From Hyphomicrobiales bacterium (GTDB lineage: Bacteria > Pseudomonadota > Alphaproteobacteria > Rhizobiales > Rhizobiaceae), in NCBI GenBank assembly GCA_900472605.1, contig UCJD01000012.1, forward strand, positions 1-64,000: a DNA stretch of 64,000 nt, given 5' to 3'. Position numbers and translations under genes: made by a program. The notes under the pieces were generated by a model that worked only from the letters and a program-made list of their open reading frames with translations, did no database searches and was not told where the DNA came from. Below, piece after piece: positions 55,408 to 60,588 of the stretch. Numbering within the stretch: the first letter of the stretch is position 1; every line of letters begins with the position of its first letter.

Positions 55408-55614
55408 GTAATGAGGGCTGATCATGTGCCTCGCATTGGCACGGTGATCGATGGTGGTGGTGATTTTTTCGGCCGATCCGAATTTTTCTAAACCGTATTC
55501 GAGATCGCCATCGTCTAACGGTTGAAAAACTCAACCGAACGGCCGCATTCCTTTTGCGTTACAGTCGCTTTTCACTATACTTGCCTTGGATCATCCAAAC
55601 GCGAGTTACCCTTG

Positions 55615-57564
55615 GTGTCAGTGGCTAAGCACAGCCTCCTGCTTCGCTTGCTCGGAAAGCCCGCGCTTTTCGCCAATGACGGCGAAATCGTGCTTCCGGA
55701 AAAAGCCTATCCGCTCCTGGCCTTCGTGGCTGCGTCGTCGCAGTTCTCGATGGAGCGCGAGACGTTGCGGGGCATGCTCTGGCAGTCCGACGTGTCGAAA
55801 CAACGTGCCGGCAGCCTTCGACAACTCCTTGCCCGCATCGATCGCAGCGTGCCGGAAGGGCTTCCCCGCCTGATCACGGCCACGAACACGCATATCACGC
55901 TCAACGCCGAGCATTGGGCCACCGATGTCCTGCTGCTGGGGGACGCCACGCATCCGCTAGCGCGGAGCGATTGGGCCCTGCTTCAGGGCGAGTTGCTCGA
56001 GGGTTTCCGCGCGCCGACGATGGAAGCCGATGAGTGGGTCACGATCGAGCGTCGCCGCATCGCCGAATGCCGCGATGCGCATCTGATGACGCTGCTTGAT
56101 TCGCCAGACAAGCTGACATTTGCCGATACCGTATTGCTGGCCGGCCTGCTCGTGGCCGCCGACCCGGCGAACGAGGCGGCATGCCGCGCGCTGATGAAGG
56201 CGCATGCGAGGGCGGGTGATCTCGCGTCAGCGCGGCAAGCGTACTTCCGTTGTCGCAATGAATTGAAGGCCGAGTACGGCGCCGAGCCTGATTCGGCAAC
56301 GCAGGCGCTCGCGCTGGAGCTCGGCATCATCGCGCCAGCAGCACCTGCCGTGCCGGAAGCAGCACCTGTTCGCTCGACGACCGTCGATCCGCTTGGCCAG
56401 CCGCGCGTGCTCATCCTTCCACCGGAGACGATGCTGTCGGAGCCGCTGCTGCAGCGCGTCGGCCGCGCCCTGCTTGAGGACGTCACGATCGGCCTCAGCC
56501 AGCAGCGTGGCTTCAAGGTGATCGCGGCGCATACCAGCGTTGAGATCTTGAACCGCAGTCTCGCCAGCGGTGAGCTGCAGCCCATGCCGCCGGAATTGCG
56601 TTTCGATTACACCGTCTACGTGACGATCCATGGCCGCGAGGACGAGATTTACGCAACCTGCCGGCTGACGAAGACCTCGACCGCCGAAGTGCTGTGGGCG
56701 ATCGACCTGCCGCTTGCCATGCAGAAGGTCAACCAGTCCTTCGGCCAGTTGGCGCGGCGCATCGTCATGACCCTTGCCGATACGATCGAACGGCGCGAAC
56801 TGACGGATATGATGCACGATGTCTCGCCCTCGGCCTATCGGCTGTATCTCGAGGGCAAGCGGCTCGTTTCCAAGACCGATCTGCAGCACCTCAGGCAGGC
56901 GCGCAAGTGGTTCAAGTCCGCGCTGTCGAGACATGACCGTTTCTCCTCCGCCCATGCCGGCATGGCCCGGGTGCTGGGCATGGAGTGGCTCGTTCGTGGC
57001 ATGAAGGACACTGCACTTCTGGAAGAGGCCGATCGGTCGGCATGGCAGGCGCGCGACAGCGATCCCAACAGCGGCCGCGCCATGCGCGAGCTCGGTTTCG
57101 TCGCGCTCTATCGGCGCCGCTTTGCCGATAGCCTCGATTTCTTCGCCGAGGCGCAGATGCTCAATCCGAACGACGCGGATATTCTGGCCGACCACGCCGA
57201 TGCGCTTTTGCATGACGGGCAGAGCGATCGGGCGCTGGAACTCAGCCACGCCGCGCTGAAGCTCAATCCGCTTCCGCCGGATTACTACTACTGGAATCTG
57301 GGCGGCATCCATTTCGTCCAGGAGAATTACGCCAAGGCGATCGAGGTGCTCGACCGCGTCAAGGACCGGCCGGCGACCTCTCGTCTGCTCGCCGCGGCGC
57401 ACGCCAAGAACGGCGATAAGGCCATTGCCGCGCATTATGCCTCGGTTGTCCTCGAGAATTTTCCGGATTTTCGCACGGAAGATGTCTGGCGTTTCGTGCC
57501 GGATCGCAACCCTGACGATACTCGTCAGCTGATAGACGGACTCAGGATGGCCGGTCTGTCCTGA
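55615..57564 (+). CDS. BTAD/SARP-like regulator with TPR repeats
   Basis: About 649 aa. A winged-helix-like N-terminal domain (about 1-95, LLLRLLGKPALFANDGEIVLPEKAYPLLAF-type start) is followed by a BTAD domain (about 100-245; WALLQGELLEGF, RRIAECRDAHL, AHARAGDLASARQAYFRCRNELKAEYG), a TolB-like mixed region (about 270-400, RVLILPPETMLSEPLLQRVGRALLEDVTIGL) and at least four TPR-like helical repeats (from about 425; YRLYLEGKRL, AMRELGFVALYRRRFADSL, ADILADHADALLHDGQSDRALE). No kinase, receiver or AAA domain is present. The start is uncertain (GTG 55615 or 55621). It lies 120 bp before the RiPP-like genes, and its family often runs secondary-metabolite loci. Confidence 0.8.
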   Translation: MSVAKHSLLLRLLGKPALFANDGEIVLPEKAYPLLAFVAASSQFSMERETLRGMLWQSDVSKQRAGSLRQLLARIDRSVPEGLPRLITATNTHITLNAEHWATDVLLLGDATHPLARSDWALLQGELLEGFRAPTMEADEWVTIERRRIAECRDAHLMTLLDSPDKLTFADTVLLAGLLVAADPANEAACRALMKAHARAGDLASARQAYFRCRNELKAEYGAEPDSATQALALELGIIAPAAPAVPEAAPVRSTTVDPLGQPRVLILPPETMLSEPLLQRVGRALLEDVTIGLSQQRGFKVIAAHTSVEILNRSLASGELQPMPPELRFDYTVYVTIHGREDEIYATCRLTKTSTAEVLWAIDLPLAMQKVNQSFGQLARRIVMTLADTIERRELTDMMHDVSPSAYRLYLEGKRLVSKTDLQHLRQARKWFKSALSRHDRFSSAHAGMARVLGMEWLVRGMKDTALLEEADRSAWQARDSDPNSGRAMRELGFVALYRRRFADSLDFFAEAQMLNPNDADILADHADALLHDGQSDRALELSHAALKLNPLPPDYYYWNLGGIHFVQENYAKAIEVLDRVKDRPATSRLLAAAHAKNGDKAIAAHYASVVLENFPDFRTEDVWRFVPDRNPDDTRQLIDGLRMAGLS

Positions 57565-57581
57565 AGTGCAACACATGGCAG

Positions 57582-57640
57582 CTTTGACCGTTAATTAGCG
57601 AAATTTCCAGTCACACCGGAATAACGCCGGCCGGTCAAAG
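57582..57640 (+). promoter_or_regulatory. Inverted repeat in the promoter region of the small peptide gene
   Basis: CTTTGACCG (57582-57590) is repeated exactly inverted as CGGTCAAAG (57632-57640), 41 nt apart, within the 120-bp gap before the peptide gene. The left arm contains a TTGACC that could be a -35. It may bind the upstream regulator as separated half sites, or form a long-loop hairpin in the leader. Confidence 0.4.
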
Positions 57641-57684
57641 TCTCTCCTGTCCGCAGCAAACGCTGCCACCAAAAGGAGAAAACC

Positions 57685-57810
57685 ATGACCAACGCAATCA
57701 AGTCCACCGTTCGCCTCTCCGCTGCAGCCCAGGCCGTTCTGAAGCAGAATGTCGTTCAGCTTGACACCAACGCAACCTCGAACATCGTTCACGCTCTGAA
57801 GTTCCGTTGA
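57685..57810 (+). CDS. 41-residue peptide, candidate RiPP precursor
   Basis: ATG at 57685 with an excellent AAAGGAG ribosome binding site; TGA at 57808-57810, 11 bp before ycaO. The peptide starts MTNAIKSTVRLS and ends NIVHALKFR. It contains no Cys, Gly, Trp or Tyr, has one acidic residue (Asp27) and several basic ones, and its Ser/Thr/Asn are gathered at 28-33 (TNATSN). A hydrophobic, helix-prone first half (about 9-26) could be the leader and the C-terminal part the core. No double-Gly cleavage site is seen. The role as YcaO substrate is inferred from size, ribosome binding site and position. Confidence 0.72.
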   Translation: MTNAIKSTVRLSAAAQAVLKQNVVQLDTNATSNIVHALKFR

Positions 57811-57821
57811 GGTTATTGCGA

Positions 57822-59078
57822 ATGTCTGTTCAGGCAGCACTCACGGATCTGGCTGGGGATCTAAGTCTTTCCGCGGCGGGCGTCAGCGCCTACCACGACC
57901 GCTCCTTGACGCCTGGACAGACATTCGCGGCGATCAAGCCGCACTTTGCCGAGCTTGGAATAACGCGCGTCGGCCTTTTGACGGCGCTCGACCTTCTCGA
58001 AATTCCTGTCGCTTTCGCGACCCGCCCGAACAGCTATACGCTTTCCGTCTTCCAGGGCAAAGGCATCGACGAGGAAGCCGCGATGACCTCGGCTGCCATG
58101 GAGGCCGTCGAAACCCGCGTTGCCGAGATGCAGCCGGACGACCTGGTCATCGCCACGCTCGCCGGCATGAAGGCTGAGCGCGCGCCGCTTATCGATCTCG
58201 ATTCCGTCGCGCGTTGCGTGCCGTCGGACATCGATGCCGGACCGCTCGCCTGGAGCGAAGGGCTCGATATCATGAACAACAAGCCGGTTTTCGTGCCGTG
58301 GTCGCTTGTTGGCCTCGATCATCGTGGGACGAGACCTTCCGGCTTCGAGCAGTCCAGCGACGGGCTGGCCTCCGGCAACCGGCCTGCCGAGGCGGTGTTA
58401 CACGGCCTGTGCGAATTGGTCGAGCGCGACGCGTGGGCGCTGACGCAGCTGCGCCCTTTCGATGAACTGCGCGGCTCACGCATCGATCCATTAGGCTTCG
58501 GCGATCCCGTGATCGACATCATCACCGGCCGCATCGCCCGGGCCGGCATGCGGCTTCTGCTTATCGATATGACGACGGACATCGGCGTGCCGAGTTTCCT
58601 CGCCGTTATCGTTCCCGGCGACCTCGGTGAGCGCGTCGATGCACGCTGGACGAATGTTTGTGGCGGCTGTGGCTGCCATCCCGATCCTGTGCGCGCTGCA
58701 CTGCGCGCCATCACCGAGGCGGCGCAGAGCCGGTTGACGGCGATCGCCGGCAGCCGTGACGACTTCTCGCCGCGCGTCTATCAGCGCCTTGATGGCGATG
58801 GGCCGATGCAGCAGCTCATCGACCTCTGCGACGAGACGCCGGTTGCTCCCAGCCTCGCCGAACCTGCCAAGCGCAGCATCCAGCAGACCATCCGTCATAT
58901 TCTGGATCGGTTGCGGACGCGCGGCATCGAGCAGGTCGTGGCGGTGCCGATCCCACATCCACGCCTTCCGGTTTCCGTCGTCCGCGTGATCGTTCCGGGC
59001 CTCGAAGTCGATGTCAGCGGTGAATTCATTCAACTTGGCTTGCGCGCGATTGGCGCCATGCAGGGAGCTCAGTCATGA
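57822..59078 (+). CDS. ycaO: YcaO-domain protein (TfuA-associated)
   Basis: 418 aa. ATP/Mg-binding motifs of the family are SAAMEAVETRVAE (90-102), GLASGNRPAEAVLHGLCELVERDA (181-204) and AITEAAQSRLTAIAGSRDD (296-314); CGGCGCHPDP (280-289) precedes the last. YcaO enzymes activate peptide amides with ATP to form azolines, macroamidines or, with TfuA, thioamides. No C-terminal PxPxP and no N-terminal E1-like partner domain is present. ATG at 57822 has GAGG 9 nt upstream. It overlaps tfuA by 4 bp, so the pair is translationally coupled. Confidence 0.93.
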   Translation: MSVQAALTDLAGDLSLSAAGVSAYHDRSLTPGQTFAAIKPHFAELGITRVGLLTALDLLEIPVAFATRPNSYTLSVFQGKGIDEEAAMTSAAMEAVETRVAEMQPDDLVIATLAGMKAERAPLIDLDSVARCVPSDIDAGPLAWSEGLDIMNNKPVFVPWSLVGLDHRGTRPSGFEQSSDGLASGNRPAEAVLHGLCELVERDAWALTQLRPFDELRGSRIDPLGFGDPVIDIITGRIARAGMRLLLIDMTTDIGVPSFLAVIVPGDLGERVDARWTNVCGGCGCHPDPVRAALRAITEAAQSRLTAIAGSRDDFSPRVYQRLDGDGPMQQLIDLCDETPVAPSLAEPAKRSIQQTIRHILDRLRTRGIEQVVAVPIPHPRLPVSVVRVIVPGLEVDVSGEFIQLGLRAIGAMQGAQS

Positions 59079-59818
59079 GAGTTATCTTCGCAGGACCAAG
59101 CTTCGGTCGGGATCTCGACAGGCTACAGGCAGAGCACCCTTCGATTAAGTTTCGCGGGCCGGCCGCCCGTGGCGATATCCTGCAGGCCGTGCGAGACGGT
59201 GCGCGGGCTATTGGCATCGTCGATGGCTATTTCGGCGAAATGCCGTCCGTCTGGCACAAGGAAATCCTCTTCGCGCTGGAGCAGAACGTCGTGGTTGCCG
59301 GCGGCGCCAGCATGGGGGCGCTGAGGGCAGCCGAATGTTCGGCCTTCGGCATGGTCGGTATCGGCTCGATCTATGACGAATACGCTGATGGCCGGCTTAT
59401 TGACGACGAGGCCGTGGCGCTCGTTCACGCGCCGGCTGAGCTGGGCTGGCTGCCGCTCTCGGTGCCATGGGTGGATTATCAGCCAACGATCGACGCGCTG
59501 AACGGTCAGGGCCTGCTTTTGTCAGGCGAATACAAGAAGCTTCTCCTGGCGGGCCGCGCGCTGCATTTTTCCGAGCGGACCTATCCGAAGGCGGTGGAAC
59601 GTTGCGCGTTCGATAGCGCCGATCGTGCCAAAGAGATCGTGCGTTTGATTCGCGCGAACAAGATCGAGCGCAAGCGCGCCGACGCGGACATGGTTCTGGA
59701 TTACCTCGCCAGCGTGAAATTCACTGCTGGGAAGCGCAGCTGGGGCTTCGCGGCAACGTCACACTGGGAGATGCTGCATGCCGAAATCAGCAACCCGGTA
59801 ACGCCTGTAACGCTCTAA
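59075..59818 (+). CDS. tfuA: TfuA-like protein
   Basis: 247 aa. The TfuA core is plain: GARAIGIVDGYFGEMPSVWHKEILFALEQ (42-70), GGASMGALRAAECSAFGMVGIG (76-97) and DDEAVALVHAP (110-120). In archaea TfuA works with YcaO to place a thioamide in methyl-CoM reductase, and bacterial YcaO/TfuA pairs are linked with thioamidated peptides; the name comes from the rhizobial trifolitoxin locus. The basic C-terminal region (about 190-235) may contact the partner or peptide. Confidence 0.92.
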   Translation: MRVIFAGPSFGRDLDRLQAEHPSIKFRGPAARGDILQAVRDGARAIGIVDGYFGEMPSVWHKEILFALEQNVVVAGGASMGALRAAECSAFGMVGIGSIYDEYADGRLIDDEAVALVHAPAELGWLPLSVPWVDYQPTIDALNGQGLLLSGEYKKLLLAGRALHFSERTYPKAVERCAFDSADRAKEIVRLIRANKIERKRADADMVLDYLASVKFTAGKRSWGFAATSHWEMLHAEISNPVTPVTL

Positions 59819-59850
59819 TAACGCCCTGCCTGAATGATGGAAGCACTGGA

Positions 59851-59872
59851 GCCCCAAAGTGGTGTTTGGGGC
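59851..59872 (+). terminator. Hairpin between tfuA and the 89-residue gene
   Basis: A perfect 8-bp stem, GCCCCAAA with its complement and a 6-nt loop, 32 bp after tfuA. There is no T-tract, so attenuation or mRNA stabilisation is as likely as full termination. Confidence 0.5.
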
Positions 59873-59892: not shown

Positions 59893-60162
59893 ATGAACAT
59901 TCAGACGATGGACGAGGGCAGCGGAAGCGAATACGCGAGGATATTTCGCTTGCTGTCGGCCGCGAAGGACGAGGCGCAGAAGCTCAAGCTGAACAATCTG
60001 ACGCACCTTACGAACATGGCTCTGCTGCAGGTCGTCATCGATTGGGATGGGATCGACCCGGAGCGCGAGCTGGACGTGAACCTGGAAAAGCTGATCGGCA
60101 CCAAGACGAAACTGGCAATGAAAGACGCGCGAGAAAATCTCGTTGTCCTGGAGCGCCACTAA
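59893..60162 (+). CDS. Hypothetical 89-residue helical protein
   Basis: No family recognised. The sequence is almost entirely helix-prone and charged (YARIFRLLSAAKDEAQKLKL near 19-38, KLIGTKTKLAMKDAREN near 68-84), acidic at the N-terminus, with no signal peptide, membrane segment or Cys. ATG at 59893 is preceded by GAGG at 10 nt. It lies 74 bp after tfuA on the same strand and may be an immunity, chaperone or leader-binding factor of the peptide locus, or unrelated. Confidence 0.7.
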   Translation: MNIQTMDEGSGSEYARIFRLLSAAKDEAQKLKLNNLTHLTNMALLQVVIDWDGIDPERELDVNLEKLIGTKTKLAMKDARENLVVLERH

Positions 60163-60179: not shown

Positions 60180-60205
60180 CGAAGCCGCTTTATTCGGCGG
60201 CTTCG
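60180..60205. terminator. Convergent terminator hairpin
   Basis: A perfect 9-bp stem (CGAAGCCGC and its complement, 8-nt loop) overlaps the last codons of the XRE gene and follows the 89-residue gene by 17 bp. It can serve both directions. Confidence 0.7.
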
Positions 60206-60588
60206 CTTTCGATCTGCTCCATGCCGGCAATCGCCTGCACCAGCTTGACGATCTTCTTGCGGACCTGCTCGTTCTTGATCGACAGGAAGGCAGCGTTCAG
60301 AAGCACGCCGTCGCGCGATACGACGAATTCGTCGCTGGGGGTCGGATTGTCGTTGGCGTTGGCCGAAATATCTTCGAAGAAGGAGCGGACGTCGACATCG
60401 AGCGCACCGGCGATTTCGACGAGCATGCTTGCCGAAACGCGGTTCGAGCCCTTTTCGTATTTCTGAATCTGCTGGAACGTGACGCCGACGCGGTCACCCA
60501 ATTCGGTCTGCGAAACCTTGCGCATCAGGCGCTTGATGCGGATCGTCTTACCGACATGAACGTCGACGGTATGCGGAGCTTCTTTCAT
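60190..60588 (-). CDS. XRE-family transcriptional regulator
   Basis: 132 aa. The HTH_3 domain spans about 13-67 (IRIKRLMRKVSQTELGDRVGVTFQQIQKYEKGSNRVSAS), followed by an acidic, Asn-rich linker and a helical C-terminus. This layout is common in Rhizobiales. ATG at 60588 with an AAGGATAAGG box. It is convergent with the peptide locus; nothing links it to that locus except position. Confidence 0.9.
   Translation of the reverse strand: MKEAPHTVDVHVGKTIRIKRLMRKVSQTELGDRVGVTFQQIQKYEKGSNRVSASMLVEIAGALDVDVRSFFEDISANANDNPTPSDEFVVSRDGVLLNAAFLSIKNEQVRKKIVKLVQAIAGMEQIESEAAE

Follow-up and report, generated by a model that had tools for sequence, protein, structure and literature searches.

The 41-codon reading frame at 57685-57810 is confirmed as a real gene, and we consider it likely to be the precursor peptide gene of a YcaO-TfuA RiPP cluster, with a C-terminal core and a product that is probably thioamidated. 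We read it as a precursor because the two genes downstream encode a YcaO enzyme and a TfuA protein, as in the three-gene set varA-varY-varT of Streptomyces varsoviensis (precursor, YcaO, TfuA), which suffices for thiovarsolin B according to the available part of PMC6511847. The frame lies in the window, by which we mean the whole stretch of 64,000 nucleotides that was analysed, and it is the second member of a block of six genes (BTAD regulator, peptide, YcaO, TfuA, 89-aa ORF and convergent HTH gene) that is syntenic in 53/53 related loci. The features of this block are as follows.

55522-57564, + strand: BTAD/TPR transcriptional regulator of SARP-like architecture, start codon uncertain (Pfam BTAD 2.4e-10, and TPR)
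57610-57627, + strand: direct-repeat box 1, GTCACACCGGAATAACGC, 11-bp period, SARP-box-like; the site from which the pattern was defined
57643-57679, + strand: predicted 5' UTR hairpin; inner stem 57653-57657/57662-57666, outer stem 57643-57648/57674-57679, which pairs the Shine-Dalgarno sequence
57685-57810, + strand: putative precursor peptide gene, 41 aa; presumptive division into a leader, RxSxAAxAxxKQ, and a core around IVHALKFR
57822-59078, + strand: YcaO enzyme, 418 aa (PF02624, 9.2e-68)
59075-59818, + strand: TfuA protein, 247 aa (PF07812, 7.8e-38); overlaps the YcaO stop by 4 nt
59807-59824, + strand: direct-repeat box 2, GTAACGCTCTAATAACGC, before the 89-aa ORF; found by the genome scan and not used in defining the pattern
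59893-60162, + strand: 89-aa protein, possibly a CinS-like anti-repressor; in 20/20 cluster genomes
60190-60588, - strand: Cro/CI-type HTH regulator, convergent, at the end of the conserved block (HTH_3, 1e-12); in 53/53 loci

The small reading frame is a conserved gene

The 53 related loci are made up of 19 loci and a further 34 from a YcaO protein scan of additional genomes (Rhizobium or 'Rhizobiales bacterium', 34/34 with the small gene). Seven of the 19 are identical over 4 kb to members of the 34, which leaves 46 distinct genomes, and the window itself makes a 54th locus. As the original prediction had described, the frame begins with ATG, is preceded by AAAGGAG, ends in TGA and is followed by the next gene 11 nt past the stop. 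The composition is also as described, with a single Asp and neither Cys, Gly, Trp nor Tyr; Pro and Glu are likewise absent. Taken by itself the ORF is not beyond chance, since 96 frames reaching 30 aa or more overlap the 8 kb between 54000 and 62000; the small ORF is significant because it is conserved among relatives.

Stops and frameshifts in relatives, which had been set beforehand as the refutation test, were sought and none was found, the ORF being intact in 53/53 related loci as counted with a small-gene finder that demanded the motif HAL[KR]FR before the stop. Codon analysis covered 54 sequences, among which there are 47 different DNA sequences. Counted by codon position (1, 2 and 3), a set of 24 sequences with 41 codons had 15, 12 and 39 variable sites, and a set of 23 sequences with 47 codons had 20, 18 and 45. 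The synonymous versus nonsynonymous comparison that had been proposed as a check, made by pairwise pooling of related sequences, gave low pN/pS values of 0.20 and 0.27. Over the last 15 codons the pooled ratio fell to 0.03 (41-codon set) and 0.12 (47-codon set), while pS remained at 0.43. The low ratios and the third-position variation together indicate selection on the amino acids, strongest at the C-terminus. There the sequence HA[LV][KR]FR is nearly fixed, and R, S, AA, N, HA and FR are invariant in 19 aligned rows that include another genus.

Conservation, codon-position bias and synteny give strong support to a translated gene. Frames as short as this one are frequent in the window, but a chance ORF in GC-rich DNA was rejected and is of negligible probability, in view of the third-position bias, the low pN/pS, the intact frame in 53/53 loci and its constant place and order. 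The proposed unit with the next gene is supported as well: in 54/54 loci the open frame of YcaO has an ATG 5-13 nt past the peptide stop. That length cut-offs miss the gene proved true in part: of 60 plasmid records listed, out of 120 matched, 53 annotate it as 'hypothetical protein' and the other 7 have no feature there, at least 2 of those 7 being without a usable gene table.

The peptide gene accompanies its YcaO gene

A protein search found the peptide in 18/61 genomes, all of the same genus. Starting instead from YcaO, an orthologue of at least 70% identity was present in 20/61 genomes and the small gene in 20/20 of these; every orthologous YcaO examined adjoins a peptide gene. A motif-free listing of ORFs, reaching 120 nt upstream of the YcaO homology, recovered the small gene in 18/20 loci. 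In the remaining 2/20 the anchor had been shifted by about 34 extra codons inserted in frame near the N-terminus of YcaO, and the peptide still ends 13 nt before the YcaO start. Such an insertion, beginning EQFQQKCE after about five codons, was seen in three loci (L065, L067 and L093). Extra DNA between the peptide gene and ycaO, which would have spoken against a leader peptide controlling ycaO, was considered for these three and rejected, the insertion sitting inside the ycaO frame.

One further genome of the same genus (L107) also has a homologue of the peptide, as do three from another genus in the family (L108-L110), where the peptides end in HAVRFR. By tblastn with E up to 1, 120 plasmid records contain the peptide (119 Rhizobium, 1 Sinorhizobium), and there are weak matches in other genera at E 0.001-0.009. 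Among the carriers of the cluster are R. etli CFN 42, on plasmid p42e, and R. johnstonii 3841, on plasmid pRL11. Compared with Pfam, NCBIfam and PHROG, the peptide matched no family.

Paralogous YcaO loci have small genes of another kind. In L022, L025, L028, L030 and L031 the precursor type is longer and has a conserved N-terminal part; those of L022, L025 and L030 carry short C-terminal repeats (for example ASGRFDE, ASGKFD and ASGRLDE), and those of L028 and L031 have a single GFMDG or GVFDG at the end. Four paralogous YcaO matches (G008:C33, G012:C21, G019:C5 and G033:C34) contain one TGA, perhaps merely through upstream extension of the match.

A predicted hairpin covers the Shine-Dalgarno sequence

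The AAAGGAG box, put forward as a translation signal, is present and is also predicted to be buried in a hairpin, which qualifies its use as evidence. The 53 nt running through the start codon fold with an MFE of -15.6 kcal/mol (z -4.3), with GGAG paired. For 41 distinct sequences the mean z was -3.4 (36/41 below -2) and the mean Shine-Dalgarno pairing 0.98 (39/41 above 0.8), against -0.44 (4/46 below -2) and 0.59 (9/46 above 0.8) for 46 control ORFs in the window, a comparison in which the controls are mechanical frames of at least 200 codons with a Shine-Dalgarno-like motif, some of them surely not genes, and in which the related sequences are not independent and p-values are not to be taken at face value. 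Of the loci from the other genus, L109 and L110 arrive at much the same fold with different letters, and L108 does not clearly do so.

With single-base shuffling of the upstream 35 nt as control, the Shine-Dalgarno pairing was supported in 9/13 representatives (at most 18/200 shuffles reach it) and unsupported in 4/13 (L052, L080, L083 and L108); the MFE z was below -2 in 12/13. RNAalifold across both clades kept 3 pairs, a low number that we attribute to failure of the sequence alignment between the clades. Within clades, double changes were found in 2/17 and 1/5 pairs. Since covariation is thus modest, the case for the hairpin rests on the energies and on the Shine-Dalgarno pairing. The region 57500-57850 had no Rfam match at E up to 1, and a comparable hairpin appeared in none of five paralogous YcaO leaders that were folded. 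We regard this as good, if not final, evidence that the predicted hairpin acts as a translational gate on the precursor. A second hairpin, GCCCCAAA...TTTGGGGC, was noticed by eye at 59851-59872 of the window, in the leader of the 89-aa ORF, and some clade-1 relatives have it too.

The position of the hairpin bears on whether the small ORF could be a regulatory arrest leader peptide, the C-terminus of which would stall the ribosome at the stop codon, with coupling controlling translation of ycaO. The conserved residues do run exactly to the stop, and the distance to the ycaO start in the 54/54 loci suits coupling. Yet the hairpin sits upstream of the small ORF, so that the small ORF itself looks regulated; the N-terminal block is conserved as well; and a small precursor gene is what the available parts of the literature lead one to expect beside adjacent YcaO-TfuA pairs. 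An arrest peptide is in our judgement unlikely.

The neighbouring enzymes point to a probable thioamidated peptide

For the precursor reading, the identity of the two enzymes is central, YcaO-TfuA pairs being known to thioamidate peptides. Their Pfam scores are well over gathering, and the pair is adjacent in 53/53 loci. The best NCBIfam model for YcaO was TIGR03266 (McrA-glycine thioamidation YcaO; 201 bits, under the cut-off of 365) and the best for TfuA was NF033432 (McrA-glycine thioamidation TfuA; 172 bits, under the cut-off of 235). Among solved structures the nearest YcaO was 6pe3 (MJ1094; 9.3e-33), and TfuA matched 6xp8, a TfuA-domain protein (7.9e-28). The YcaO segments SAAMEAVE, EAVLHGLCELVERDAW and LRAITEAAQSR, which we take to be the YcaO ATP-binding motifs, align with 6pe3. 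Compared by eye, their Met, His and Ala resemble the residues that PMC8120280, in the text available, reports as preferred at those positions in TfuA-associated YcaO. Two matches to ThiS were found in the genome. ThiS is the sulfur carrier used through TfuA.

Both enzyme scores are under the McrA equivalog cut-offs, and homology therefore fixes neither the substrate nor the chemistry. The reactions of other YcaO enzymes include formation of azolines or amidines and modification of whole proteins, as stated in the available sections of PMC13063428. PMC8120280, in the part available, describes one TfuA clade that has no known product and consists mostly of proteins from Proteobacteria and Actinobacteria, and it proposes to test whether the function of that clade differs. 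In the conserved block, Pfam matched YcaO, TfuA and the regulators, and nothing in the two small proteins; among the block proteins it gave no transporter, protease, dehydrogenase, separate leader-binding domain or obvious immunity gene. The genes flanking the six-gene block differ between two clades. Matches to each of the six genes are present in the other genus too, in loci that are cut at both ends.

Further copies of each enzyme were observed. The same genome has a second YcaO (L069 7864-9174, in G000:C48 of about 300 kb, and L002), 42% identical, with a Cro/CI-type HTH gene before it and, after it, a small ORF like those behind other paralogous YcaO genes; no TfuA lies within the 16 kb fetched. 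A second TfuA (L138 4414-7498, in G000:C79) has a divergent TPR protein that is 27% identical to the BTAD regulator of the window, followed by a 72-aa precursor-like ORF (MSKVVVISITGEDGLWVADLDAGTV...), and no YcaO lies in the 10 kb fetched. With these second copies of YcaO and TfuA in the genome, partners could be shared. In Rhizobium tumorigenes, a TfuA-like gene stands between the genes for urea carboxylase and allophanate hydrolase (L111 4785-5498), and the 10 kb covered there has no annotated YcaO.

The product could be an azoline or another YcaO-type ring instead of a thioamide. YcaO chemistry is diverse (PMC13063428, in part), and rhizobia make azol(in)e peptides, phazolicin and trifolitoxin among them (PMC9670871 and PMC10128002). 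Here, by contrast, the peptide has no Cys and a TfuA gene is adjacent, both of which make an azoline less likely; of the three NCBIfam models matched by YcaO, the SagD azole model scored lowest (116 bits versus 201 for McrA thioamidation), and a dehydrogenase is lacking among the block proteins. Azoline-forming YcaO enzymes have a terminal PxPxP, whereas the present one ends in ...GAMQGAQS, without it. We hold a ring-type product to be quite improbable.

Alternatively, the 41-mer could be an unmodified accessory or regulatory partner, the substrate of the YcaO-TfuA pair being a protein elsewhere, as with uL16 in E. coli or McrA in archaea. Some YcaO enzymes do have intact proteins as substrates, as the available sections of PMC13063428 record, and the C-terminus of the 41-mer is unusually constant for the core of a natural product. 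The same source, in the part available, judged the E. coli YcaO unlikely to act on a RiPP precursor, as no small ORF is nearby; here a small ORF is near YcaO in 53/53 loci, unlike in E. coli. That the peptide itself goes unmodified seems very unlikely.

Two direct-repeat boxes suggest control by the BTAD regulator

The BTAD regulator precedes the peptide gene in 53/53 loci. Its N-terminal profile matches OmpR-type winged-helix chains weakly (best E 0.012), and its comparison with AfsR gave E 0.12. Upstream of the peptide, T(C/A)AC(G/A)C is repeated at 11 bp. The corresponding pattern, GTMACRCNNNAATRACGC, has two perfect matches in the 5.8-Mb genome, at 57610 and 59807, where about 0.09 per genome would be expected by chance if uniform composition is assumed. 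Both boxes are recognisable in 54/54 loci, box 1 with at most 1 mismatch and box 2 with 0-2, and, with a looser pattern, in the other genus. Over the 61 genomes there were 21 perfect matches in 17 genomes, 21/21 of them at the cluster, while a reversed control pattern gave one match. Both sites are perfect in 4/17 genomes, and in 3/20 cluster genomes neither is.

In classical SARP sites an 11-bp unit is directly repeated, according to the available part of PMC10972967, and this likeness makes the adjoining BTAD protein the obvious candidate activator. By analogy, it probably acts through the 11-bp repeat box as activator of the peptide-ycaO-tfuA operon. Close cellular control of the peptide is suggested by the regulon with its two boxes, together with the buried Shine-Dalgarno sequence.

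A model for the cluster and the possible role of the 89-aa protein

In the precursor reading, the BTAD regulator would switch on the peptide-ycaO-tfuA operon via its 11-bp repeat box, and the YcaO-TfuA pair would recognise the N-terminal half of the peptide (RxSxAAxAxxKQ) as its leader. YcaO, with ATP, and TfuA, delivering sulfur, would then convert one or more backbone amides to thioamides in the IVHA[LV][KR]FR segment, and proteases outside the block would free the product. We favour a conserved physiological product (a signal, a metal ligand or something cofactor-like) over an arms-race toxin, since the C-terminus hardly varies across two genera and the block has neither a transporter nor an obvious immunity gene.

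The 89-aa ORF behind box 2 offers a lead as to function. A homologue with 55-57% identity occurs in 4/17 genomes of the same genus that are without the cluster, and two cluster genomes have an additional second, weaker homologue. In the three of these four non-cluster genomes that were read (G018, G013 and G024), the homologue lies directly 3' of luxI, itself behind luxR, all on one strand; Pfam confirms LuxI and LuxR of G018 and LuxR of G024. This is the position of CinS, which, as characterised in the available parts of PMC4149787 and PMC5977203, is a small protein that counteracts the HTH repressor PraR as its anti-repressor; the cinS gene is transcribed together with cinI. In the present cluster, however, the 89-aa gene is not downstream of luxI. 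Profile comparison (hhalign) of the 89-aa protein with the 63-aa protein that follows luxI in G009 and G027, presumed to be CinS, gave a probability of 4.5%. Against the small proteins behind paralogous YcaO genes the figure was 28.7%, rising to 87% with more diverse alignments. The model of the 89-aa protein is helical and of low confidence (mean pLDDT 64), too weak for a structure search. Judged from sequence, the protein is possibly CinS-like, as a lead and not as membership.

From the luxI-adjacent homologues one may sketch peptide signalling built like cinIS, a scheme that we consider doubtful. A thioamidated peptide would replace the acyl-homoserine lactone, the BTAD protein would drive both the signal and a CinS-like anti-repressor via the two boxes, the anti-repressor would lift a PraR-type repressor, and the Shine-Dalgarno hairpin would be a second gate. 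If true, it would tie a ribosomal thioamide pheromone to rhizobial quorum sensing.

Comparison with known systems

YcaO-TfuA clusters in Rhizobium are already known; what appears unusual is the regulatory layout, of which we found no description. In its available text, PMC8120280 counts more than 500 TfuA-related RiPP clusters in Rhizobium, found with antiSMASH and RiPPER, and the present cluster is probably among them. The results section of that paper contains no such precursor, BTAD box or hairpin; its precursors are listed in a supplement, which may include this peptide. Our literature search found no description of the precursor, box or hairpin, and a search under guessed pRL11 locus numbers returned nothing.

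With the CinS-PraR system the locus shares 89-aa homologues that follow luxI in three non-cluster genomes and an adjoining Cro/CI-type HTH gene, but profile similarity to the presumed CinS is very weak. With SARP regulation, as far as the available source describes it, it shares a BTAD-domain regulator beside the cluster and direct repeats with an 11-bp period, and it differs in the C-terminal TPR region and the alphaproteobacterial host. Linear azol(in)e peptides (TOMM) have a Cys/Ser/Thr-rich core and a dehydrogenase, whereas here Cys, Ser and Thr are all absent from the C-terminal HA[LV][KR]FR and the block has no dehydrogenase. The thioviridamide-type thioamitides have additional tailoring enzymes in the cluster, and Pfam found none of these in the conserved block. 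The methanogen pair for McrA-glycine thioamidation supplies the nearest curated models for both enzymes, with MJ1094 as the nearest solved YcaO; its substrate is a large enzyme, where here it is apparently a small peptide, and the present scores are under the equivalog cut-offs.

The thiovarsolin cluster shares with the present one the minimal gene set of precursor, YcaO and TfuA. VarA, as described in the part of the source available, has repeated APR cores, whereas the 41-mer has one C-terminal segment ending in KFR or RFR, and the present set differs further in its Gram-negative Rhizobium host and in having its own BTAD regulator and 89-aa gene. As of 2021, every peptide product known from a YcaO-TfuA pair was of actinobacterial origin, according to the available text of PMC8120280. 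The locus described here offers a defined precursor, a near-fixed C-terminus and a minimal enzyme pair, and with R. etli CFN 42 and R. johnstonii 3841 as carriers it makes the product and its role directly testable.
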